Assembly (NCBI GenBank): GCA_016794505.1
Contig: JAEUJZ010000145.1
Coordinates: forward strand, 62,001-126,000
DNA from: Myxococcales bacterium
Lineage (GTDB): Bacteria; Myxococcota_A; Polyangia; Palsa-1104; JAEUJZ01
Length of the DNA stretch: 64,000 bases
Reading direction: 5' to 3'
The position numbers and the translations under genes were made by a program. A model generated the notes under the pieces. The model was not told the DNA's origin, ran no database searches, and worked only from the letters and a program-made list of their open reading frames with translations. Below, in pieces: positions 13,035 to 60,233 of this stretch (position 1 is its first letter; every line of letters starts with the position of its first letter).

Positions 13035-14258
13035 ATGGCAAAGCTCCCCACCCTGATCCACAAGCTGCCTCTGTGGTTGTTTGCCTCTGCTCTGATCACC
13101 GCGCCGGCTTGCAACGCCGCCCGTCTCGATACCGGTGACAACGAAGACGACGCGGACATGGGTATGTCCGAGTACCGCCGCGATCTCGCCGGCACCGACT
13201 TAAAGAAGCCGCGCGACCGCGATGCCGCCTGCGCCAGCGTCAAGGCCGAGGCCACGCTGGCCAAAAAGCCCGTCGACATCATCTTCGTCATCGACAACTC
13301 GGGCAGCATGTCCGACGAGATCCTGGCGGTTCAGAACAACATCAACAAGAACTTCGCTGACATCATCGGCAAAAGTGGCCTCGACTATCGCGTCGTGATG
13401 GTCACGCGCCATGGCAAGTACAACGGCTCCTCGAACGCCATCTGCGTCGAAAAGCCGCTGTCGACGGTGGCCTCGTGCGCGACGCCGCCGACCCAGCCTG
13501 GTATCAACCCCGGCAAGTTCTATCACTACAGCATCCAGATCGAGAGCACCGACTCGTTCCGTCGCTTGCTCAACTCGTTCGGCGGCTCCGTCAAAGACGA
13601 GTTCAACCTGGCGCCGATGGGCTGGTCGCAGTGGGTGCGCAGCGACGCATTCAAGGTGTTCATCGAGATCACCGACGATCGCTCGGACATGACAGCAGCG
13701 GCGTTTGAAACCGCGCTGTTCGCGCTGCCCGGCAAGCAGTTTGGTGACGCCACCGACCGCAACTACGTCTGGCACAGCATCATCGGCCTGAAAGAAAACA
13801 GCCCCGCAACGAAAGCCTGGCAGCCCGCCGATCCTGTTCAGATGGGGATGTGTAGCGGGAGCGCCGTCTACAGCAACGGCGTCGACTATCAGAACCTGTC
13901 GATCGCCACCAAGGGCTTGCGCTTCCCAATCTGCCAGCATGCCAGCTTCGACGCCGTGTTTAACCAAGTCGCGACGGGCGTGATCTCGGGCACCAAGGTC
14001 GCCTGCGACTTCCCGCTGCCGATGCCGCCGCCCGGTCAAAAGGTGGACCTCGACTCGGTCACCGTCGACTACACACCGATGGGCATGGGCACACCGATGT
14101 CGTTCAAGCAGGTGCCGACGCTGGGGGCCTGCATGCCCAACTCGTTCTATATCAGCGGCGATCGCATCCACATGTGTCCCGAAGCCTGCGCCGTCGTGCA
14201 GAAGGACACCAAGGCCAAGGTCGAGGTCCTCTTCGACTGCCTGTCGATCATCGGCTAG
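13035..14258 (+). CDS. VWA-domain lipoprotein
   Basis: 407-aa secreted protein. The N-terminus (LWLFASALITAPAC) is a type II signal peptide with lipobox APAC, so it should be a lipoprotein. The VWA domain starts near residue 80 (VDIIFVIDNSGSMSDE) with an intact MIDAS DxSxS motif, and continues through FKVFIEITDDRSD. VWA domains bind ligands or partner proteins through a divalent metal. Several cysteines in the C-terminal third probably pair. GAGGA lies 7 nt before the ATG. Proteins of this type are common in myxobacteria and often lack a known function. Confidence 0.88.
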   Translation: MAKLPTLIHKLPLWLFASALITAPACNAARLDTGDNEDDADMGMSEYRRDLAGTDLKKPRDRDAACASVKAEATLAKKPVDIIFVIDNSGSMSDEILAVQNNINKNFADIIGKSGLDYRVVMVTRHGKYNGSSNAICVEKPLSTVASCATPPTQPGINPGKFYHYSIQIESTDSFRRLLNSFGGSVKDEFNLAPMGWSQWVRSDAFKVFIEITDDRSDMTAAAFETALFALPGKQFGDATDRNYVWHSIIGLKENSPATKAWQPADPVQMGMCSGSAVYSNGVDYQNLSIATKGLRFPICQHASFDAVFNQVATGVISGTKVACDFPLPMPPPGQKVDLDSVTVDYTPMGMGTPMSFKQVPTLGACMPNSFYISGDRIHMCPEACAVVQKDTKAKVEVLFDCLSIIG

Positions 14259-14295: not shown

Positions 14296-14376
14296 TCTTC
14301 TCGTTTCCCGCCCCGGCTTCCGTCGCAGACACAAATTACACTTGAACTTTTGTTCAGTGCTTAGCAGGATGCGCCC

Positions 14377-14922
14377 ATGCGACGCATTCCTCTTCGAGTG
14401 GTCTGTCACGCCGTCTTTCGCAGCGAAGTCATCCCGCTGCACGTCCGTCGCCTGCAGCAGCAAGTCGAGAGCACCTGCGCCGAGCAGGGCGCGCAGCTTG
14501 TGGGCTTTTACTGCGACTTCGGACTGCGCAAAGAACACGTGCTCGACTACCCAGCGCTGTTGCACCTGCGCGGCGGTCGTGCCGATGCCTTGCTGATCGT
14601 GCGTACGCCGCTGCTTTGCACCAGCCCCAGCCACGACCTGCTGGAATCGCTGTGCCTGCCGCCAGGGCAGCCGATGAGCTGGCTGCCGGTGCCCGAGCTA
14701 CGCATCCTGGGTCTTTTGCCCAAGGCCATGCGTGTCACCAGCTTCGCGCGACTGCGCGCCGCCGAGCTTGCCTCGCGCGGGTTTCCGCCGCACGCCATTG
14801 CTCGCTGGCTGGACAGCGAGGGCTTCGCTCCACCGCAGGCCCGTCGCTTGCGCTGGACCACACACGACATCGCGCTGCTGTTGCGTCCCGCCCCACCCCT
14901 TGAAAAGCAGCTCGTGCGCTAG
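14377..14922 (+). CDS. Degenerate serine-recombinase-like protein
   Basis: 181-aa protein whose layout matches a serine recombinase: an N-terminal resolvase-like fold (RVVCHAVFRSEV, then helix VRRLQQQVE, strand QLVGFYCDFG, then RADALLIVRTPLL) and a C-terminal piece like the Recombinase/HTH segment (ELASRGFPPHAIARWL, TTHDIALLLR). The catalytic residues are gone: the RVS nucleophile position reads RVV, and the LDRLSRS helix motif reads RTPLLCTS, so both Arg residues and the Asp are replaced. It cannot be an active recombinase by the known mechanism. A DNA-binding role in a domesticated copy is inferred. It stands alone, with no repeats or partner genes around it. Confidence 0.6.
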   Translation: MRRIPLRVVCHAVFRSEVIPLHVRRLQQQVESTCAEQGAQLVGFYCDFGLRKEHVLDYPALLHLRGGRADALLIVRTPLLCTSPSHDLLESLCLPPGQPMSWLPVPELRILGLLPKAMRVTSFARLRAAELASRGFPPHAIARWLDSEGFAPPQARRLRWTTHDIALLLRPAPPLEKQLVR

Positions 14923-58955: not shown

Positions 58956-59029
<74 letters not shown>

Positions 59030-59032
59030 AAG

Positions 59033-59067
59033 AAACCCCGTCGGTGACAGACCACCTGACGGGGTTT
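59033..59067 (+). terminator. Rho-independent terminator of tRNA-Ala
   Basis: AAACCCCGTC (59033-59042) pairs with GACGGGGTTT (59058-59067) and is followed by more T residues. It begins 4 nt after the tRNA. Confidence 0.85.
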
Positions 59068-59123
59068 TTCATTTTCTGCGTTCGGGGGCGAACAATGATT
59101 GACCAACGAATCGTTGCCCATGC

Positions 59124-60233
59124 CTAGCCCTCGAAGGATACGCGCGCCGGCCCCAGGACGAGCTCGGCGTGGCGATGGGTGAGCGCAGCCGCGGTACCCG
59201 GAGCGGCATAGCTTTGCAGGGTGGTCGTGCCTGACTCATGGCCGAGTGCCGCCGCCACTTGCGCAAGCGGTACGCCCGAGAGCAAGCCGAGCGTGGCGGC
59301 GAAGCCCCGCAGGCTGTGCGCGCAGACGACCGGCACCCCTGAGAGGCGGCAGAGCCGCCGGGTCTGTCGGCGCACCCAGTCCCGCCAATGCGCCCCGCCT
59401 TCTTCAGCGGTGAACAGCAGCGCATCGGGCTGGCGGCCACGCACGCGAGCCATCAAATACCCGCGCACTTCCTCCCAGACCGAAACCGGACGCCTCCCCG
59501 CTGCCGTTTTCGGGCTGAAAGCGATGGCCTGATTGTCATCCACCCAGAGAATCCGCCCGGCGTCATCCACATCGCGGACGGTACGGCTGACGATTTCGCC
59601 GGCTCGGAGGCCCATGAGCAGCGCAAGAAGTACCGCTACCGCGCCATCATCGCCGCGTGCCGCGTGCCGATGACACGTTTCCCGCAGTCGCCGCGCTTCA
59701 TCAATGCGCAGCTGCGGCTTGCCATGCCGCCGCTTGCCCAGCCCGGCCACATCGAGGAGCGGATTGCTTTTCAGCCAGCGCTGCGGCTTGACACACCAGT
59801 TCAGGAAGGTGCGCGCCTCGGCCAGCGTATTGCGGTGGCTGTCTGCCGCCAGCGGCCTGCCGGTTCGCGGCGATACCCGCTCCGTCGCCTGCCGATAGTA
59901 GCGGCGGCACTGGCGCGAGGTCAGCGTTCCGAGTTCGACCTCCGGCTCCTCGAAGAATGAGCGCAGCCGCGTCAGGGTTGTCCTGACTGACCCCGACCGG
60001 TTGTTCTTCTCGTTGAGCAAGTGGTCCTCGTAGGCTTTGAGCGCGTCCGCAACGGTGCGCCCCATTCGCTTCTTCAAGTCCGCTTCGAGCGCGGCGATGA
60101 CTTCCAGCGCAGCTGCTTCTGTTTCATAGACTGCCTGAGTCTTTGCGCCTCCTTCGTCGCAAAGGAAGATGCGGTACTTACCGCGCCAGCTGTAGGGTCC
60201 AAGAACTCTGCTTCCGTGTCTTCGTCGTGGCAT
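59124..60233 (-). CDS. Tyrosine recombinase / phage-type integrase
   Basis: 369-aa site-specific recombinase that would insert and excise the neighbouring element at the tRNA-Ala gene. It has an N-terminal arm-type domain (GPYSWRGKYRIFLCD), a core-binding SAM-like domain (residues about 60-155) and a C-terminal catalytic domain with GLRAGEIV (first Arg), HSLRGFAA (His-x-x-Arg), GHESGTTT and the Tyr nucleophile in TLQSYA. All active-site residues are present, so it is probably functional. GAGGGA lies 6 nt before the ATG. It points at the tRNA gene, the standard arrangement at an attachment site. Confidence 0.95.
   Translation of the reverse strand: MPRRRHGSRVLGPYSWRGKYRIFLCDEGGAKTQAVYETEAAALEVIAALEADLKKRMGRTVADALKAYEDHLLNEKNNRSGSVRTTLTRLRSFFEEPEVELGTLTSRQCRRYYRQATERVSPRTGRPLAADSHRNTLAEARTFLNWCVKPQRWLKSNPLLDVAGLGKRRHGKPQLRIDEARRLRETCHRHAARGDDGAVAVLLALLMGLRAGEIVSRTVRDVDDAGRILWVDDNQAIAFSPKTAAGRRPVSVWEEVRGYLMARVRGRQPDALLFTAEEGGAHWRDWVRRQTRRLCRLSGVPVVCAHSLRGFAATLGLLSGVPLAQVAAALGHESGTTTLQSYAAPGTAAALTHRHAELVLGPARVSFEG

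Follow-up and report, generated by a model that had tools for sequence, protein, structure and literature searches.

Large serine recombinases (LSRs), which carry the PF00239 and PF07508 domains, combine an N-terminal resolvase core with C-terminal HTH repeats, and the same colinear order is found in the protein described here. The recombination directionality factors of serine integrases offer a second point of comparison; to our knowledge, none of those known is derived from a recombinase. A third is provided by TldR proteins, in which cutting has been lost and DNA binding kept. TldR proteins are described as RNA-guided transcription factors (PMC13418256) and are pseudoenzyme regulators that arose from mobile-element proteins. 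Passages of PMC8987985 treat active invertases and resolvases. Dead LSR paralogues acting as regulators do not figure in the titles and abstract openings of the mostly non-subscription literature searched, which is weak evidence.

The gene lies in the window, by which we mean the whole 64,000-nucleotide stretch that was analysed (G000:C145:62001-126000), from a Myxococcales assembly of 9.2 Mb in 191 contigs that is 91.7% complete. The initial annotation described it as an open frame encoding a domesticated, catalytically dead relative of serine recombinases. The frame is indeed uninterrupted, running from the ATG at 14377 to the TAG that ends at 14922, and its codon-position GC (0.73/0.48/0.78) resembles that of the neighbouring genes. 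These neighbours include a protein kinase, a 407-aa protein with no Pfam match, a uridine kinase, and an O-methyltransferase, so that this copy of the gene sits in ordinary chromosome. A search for repeats flanking it gave nothing convincing. The udk gene is present in 13 of the 14 genomes searched, its own genome counted, and within the 1.5-kb flanks examined in relatives neither the O-methyltransferase nor the gene at 13035-14258 is adjacent to it. Because the neighbours of udk differ in these flanks, empty-site synteny cannot date the insertion. Elsewhere in the window, positions 58956-60233 hold a likely integrated element, made up of a tRNA-Ala (cgc) gene and, after it on the opposite strand, an integrase gene of the tyrosine-recombinase type (PF00589, E 1.1e-12).

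Table 1. Features of the window and of related loci in the same genome; positions without a locus prefix refer to the window.
Feature	Position	Strand	Basis or remark
Dead serine-recombinase derivative, 181 aa	14377..14922	+	Open frame; typical codon-position GC; paralogues and homologue
N-terminal part of resolvase catalytic domain, residues 5-106	14389..14694	+	Profile match; catalytic residues replaced
HTH-containing repeat, residues 119-172	14731..14892	+	hhalign of C-terminal half; resembles C-terminal repeats of local LSRs
AGGA, RBS-like	14366..14369	+	Sequence only; 7 nt ahead of ATG
Perfect inverted repeat, TGAAC-TTTT-GTTCA	14343..14356	.	Sequence; 21-34 bases before start codon
140-aa dead resolvase domain	L047:5764-6183 (C115)	+	
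140-aa dead resolvase domain	L046:6614-7033 (C85)	+	
140-aa dead resolvase domain	L048:6215-6634 (C12)	-	
Ser-to-Ala dead resolvase, YVRVA for YVRVS	L106:6487-7113 (C65)	+	
Ser-to-Ala dead resolvase, YVRVA for YVRVS	L128:212-835 (C179)	-	

Searches with the window protein itself returned little. In Pfam its only match was to HTH_23 (E 0.13), with none to PF00239 up to E 10, and PF07508 was matched neither by this protein nor, above the cut-off of 21.1 bits, by three of its relatives (13.4, 12.2, and 16.7 bits). Weak matches to PF07508 and to phage integrases were seen in relatives of the protein. NCBIfam and PHROGs contained no match for the window protein, a search of the PDB with it as a single query produced chance matches only, and a search of PDB sequences with the family profile did not reveal recombinase ancestry. 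An AlphaFold2 model built from the single sequence had a mean pLDDT of 45.2, not good enough to be compared with known folds.

The relationship appears when alignments are compared. A four-row family alignment (A2), consisting of the window protein, its paralogues on contigs C15 and C70, and a homologue from genome G005, was compared by hhalign with an alignment of 22 LSRs from the same genome as the window (A3), giving a probability of 96.9 and an E value of 1.6e-10. The N-terminal residues 1-95 alone scored 51.5 against the LSRs, compared with 30.7 for the best of 60 column shuffles, and the C-terminal residues 116-181 alone scored 63.1, compared with 20.3 for the best of 60; reversed profiles, used as a control, scored ~10. 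With each half above all 60 of its shuffles, the two are homologous to LSRs independently of each other. The A2 profile matches LSRs colinearly, with the N-terminal core first and the HTH repeats after it. Positions 27-106 of the family HMM align to residues 38-121 of an LSR in locus L040, and the HMM matches several repeats within each LSR. These sequence comparisons show an ancestry shared with serine recombinases, as had been proposed, and show that the C-terminal half, previously noted as a compact HTH-like end, is homologous to the C-terminal repeats of LSRs.

The alignments to LSRs also show what has been lost. For the residues that we take to be catalytic in serine recombinases, PLRVVCHAVFR of the window protein aligns to PLRVIGYVRVS of the LSRs, with V13 in place of the catalytic Arg and R15 in place of the Ser; RTPLLCTS aligns to KLDRLTRS, with D, R, and R replaced by P, L, and T; and the Arg of ERPGL is replaced by Tyr in DYPAL. 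The catalytic Ser and the Arg/Asp set are therefore absent from the protein, in agreement with the earlier reading that the nucleophile and the helix Arg residues had been replaced. That reading had also described the whole protein as following the serine-recombinase layout. The order of the core and the HTH part is retained, but the alignment skips ~100 LSR residues past the fourth strand and before the HTH part, a stretch of the catalytic domain that includes the part from which known recombinases form their oligomerisation helix. Of the three HTH repeats present in most LSRs of the genome, the window protein has kept one, and its length is 181 aa compared with ~330-470 aa for most complete LSRs there.

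Seven places in the genome hold members of the family. Besides the window gene, two of them, on C15 (53%) and C70 (47%), are full-length paralogues, and the other four are partial, one on C150, two on C21, and one on C175 that is ended by the contig edge. Genome G005, from another genus of the same family, has one full-length homologue (29%). Both paralogues and this homologue are catalytically dead, so that the expected relatives with the same catalytic loss do exist. The A2 profile matches 11 of the 317 genomes of the class. Full-length copies occur in only two of the 317, making the dead family nearly private to this genome and G005; elsewhere, what the profile hits at the inspected positions is for the most part an LSR and in a few cases an unrelated sequence matched by chance. 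In a phylum sample of 377 genomes, eight match A2 and a full-length copy is found only in the genome of the window, G005 being outside the genomes listed. No relative was found in plasmids (72,556 records) or phages (50,697 records), nor in the viral_contigs and genome_contigs sets, all of them scans in which the window's own genome is possibly absent. An 89-bp stretch close to one of the gene fragments on C21 (L045:10557-10645) is 98.9% identical to a stretch on C70 (L041:17798-17886).

Pairwise dN/dS among the three full-length copies in the genome is 0.41 (bootstrap interval 0.25-0.60), 0.54 (0.35-0.79), and 0.34 (0.21-0.49), with dS of 1.0-1.4, so that saturation matters for these ratios; against G005, at larger distance, values are 0.65-0.73. 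By branch, the C15 and C70 copies are both constrained (0.25 and 0.44). Purifying selection acts across the dead family, but for the window gene itself the constraint is not significant, its branch having a dN/dS of 0.69 with an interval of 0.32-31 and values of at least 1 in 22% of bootstraps. Within the genome, residues 1-20, the former active-site strand, are 60-75% identical and residues 96-118 are 57-61% identical, compared with 48-59% for the HTH. Conservation of these two segments at or above the level of the HTH fits a new role better than mere retention of the HTH. The window gene could instead be a decaying passenger, a copy of an LSR-island gene left in the chromosome without function and with a frame still open because the event was recent. 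The wide interval on its branch is compatible with this explanation, as is the scarcity of the family beyond its own genome, and three of the seven family places are broken fragments, as expected of dispensable DNA. We consider it rather unlikely, given a frame that is intact at ~50% identity to the paralogues, the pairwise dN/dS values below 1, and the normal codon-position GC and AGGA motif ahead of the start.

Other members of the family lie close to LSRs. The genome has 60 PF00239 matches at E values up to 1, none of which is on C145, the 154-kb contig of the window, and both C21 places are likewise on a contig without an LSR. The distance to an LSR or LSR fragment is ~0.6 kb for C15, ~1.7 kb for C70, ~2.0 kb for C175, and ~4.9 kb for C150, where the family member is itself a fragment beside an LSR fragment; the C175 copy is the one ended by the contig edge. 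Four of the seven places are thus within 5 kb, and each of these family members is convergent to its LSR or LSR fragment. Regions no more than 5.5 kb from an LSR match make up approximately 4.6% of the genome. Taking a rate of 5.5%, the binomial probability of at least four of seven places being near an LSR is ~3e-4, a post hoc figure for which two contig sizes were guessed. Therefore, the family belongs at least in part to the mobile fraction of the genome. On C15 the dead gene is followed on the same strand by a 74-aa frame and then a ParE toxin gene; the position and overlap of the 74-aa frame suggest that it is ParD-like. These genes have the LSR on one side and a 70-bp block on the other; in C12 this block comes within ~200 bp after the LSR. 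The G005 homologue directly precedes a 1326-aa nSTAND1-WD40 protein (L049:1512-5489), and the neighbours of the dead genes otherwise differ from place to place. Near-identical LSR genes start islands in L047 (C115), L048 (C12), and L040 (C15) that differ in their cargo, which variously comprises a 1154-aa phosphoesterase/ATPase-like protein, unknown proteins, and parDE with the dead gene. C12 and C115 also share a far block of 590 bp at 95% identity.

We tabulated 57 LSR-like frames around PF00239 matches and counted their motifs by hand, and in 43 of them the Ser and Asp/Arg motifs both occur at some point along the frame. Another two kinds of dead resolvase domain adjoin active LSRs at five places, in each case directly upstream and on the same strand (Table 1). 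The first is a 140-aa domain lacking the catalytic Ser and the Asp-Arg, which in all three copies precedes an active LSR of 330 to 363 aa. Its dN/dS values are 0.36, 0.65, and 0.35, the interval of the 0.65 value including 1, and those of the adjacent LSRs are 0.05-0.09. The second, in which the Ser is replaced by Ala, has a dN/dS of 0.18 (0.04-0.44) and is directly upstream of the start of an LSR, which is truncated where the contig stops. On C65, the beginning of its frame overlaps a different LSR, encoded on the opposite strand. One member of each kind was tested against Pfam, and both exceed the PF00239 cut-off. A broken relative of the Ser-to-Ala kind is present in genome G001, and the other matches to the two queries that were inspected, in a set of 309 genomes from the class, are LSRs. 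We regard these dead partners beside live LSRs as a more interesting lead than the window gene. It is conceivable, if doubtful, that at least three dead kinds (the family of the window gene, the 140-aa domain, and the Ser-to-Ala domain) form a regulatory layer over the large set of LSRs in this lineage, under selection and acting next to them or in trans to set the movement of islands. Convergent LSRs near four of seven family places, together with dead domains directly upstream of active LSRs, would also suit an accessory subunit, a directionality or inhibitory partner that uses what is left of its resolvase core to contact the catalytic domain of LSRs. Such a role is unlikely for the window protein, which lacks the oligomerisation helix region and is encoded on a contig without an LSR, and the variable neighbours of the dead genes also speak against it.

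The inverted repeat upstream of the window gene is a possible operator, but may be a chance occurrence. Its core, GAACN4GTTC, is found twice in the window compared with 0.57 expected, and 14 of 100 shuffles reach two. Neither the paralogues nor the homologue have the repeat in their upstream DNA, where no operator is conserved, and the exact GAACN4GTTC box is also missing at the lexA gene of the genome. An SOS box at 14343-14356 was considered and dropped for these reasons. A host transcription factor with a target unrelated to recombination, possibly autoregulated through the repeat, would fit the closeness of the repeat to the start and the ordinary chromosomal surroundings with protein kinase, uridine kinase, and O-methyltransferase genes. 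With the repeat within chance and missing at relatives, and no such exact box at lexA, we find this explanation quite improbable.

Our preferred reading, held with about even confidence, is that the window protein is a pseudo-recombinase that binds DNA and probably modulates promoters or sites of the LSR type. It starts from what the comparisons establish, namely the ancestry, the catalytic loss and its occurrence in relatives, the missing helix region, the purifying selection on the family as a whole, and the proximity of several relatives to LSRs, and the presence of dead copies near working recombinases hints at a regulatory role. Points that weigh against it are the low confidence of the structural model, the lack of resolvase or recombinase matches above the Pfam cut-offs, a contig without an LSR, the three broken family members, the non-significant constraint on the window branch, and the lack of a conserved upstream operator. 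An ancestral LSR with tandem HTH repeats would have lost its active site, its oligomerisation helix, and two of the repeats, so that what remained was most of the resolvase core attached to a single HTH unit. That unit would most likely bind LSR-type half-sites or operators, where the bound protein, unable to cut or to pair normally, would block or tune. The outcome would be repression or tuning of a nearby promoter or of LSRs that recognise similar sites. If dead copies control live recombinases, then serine integrases, a common tool of genome engineering, would have a brake or switch of natural origin. The genome is also an unusual opportunity to observe how loss of the active site and oligomerisation helix makes a recombinase into what is predicted to be a plain DNA-binding protein.

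Compared with LSRs, the window protein lacks the catalytic Ser, Arg, and Asp residues and ~100 aa with the helix, and has a single HTH repeat. Recombination directionality factors of serine integrases are also small and encoded near a recombinase, a location that in the dead family applies to some copies only. With TldR proteins it would share its source, a mobile-element protein giving rise to a regulator, but it belongs to another family and its regulatory role is putative.
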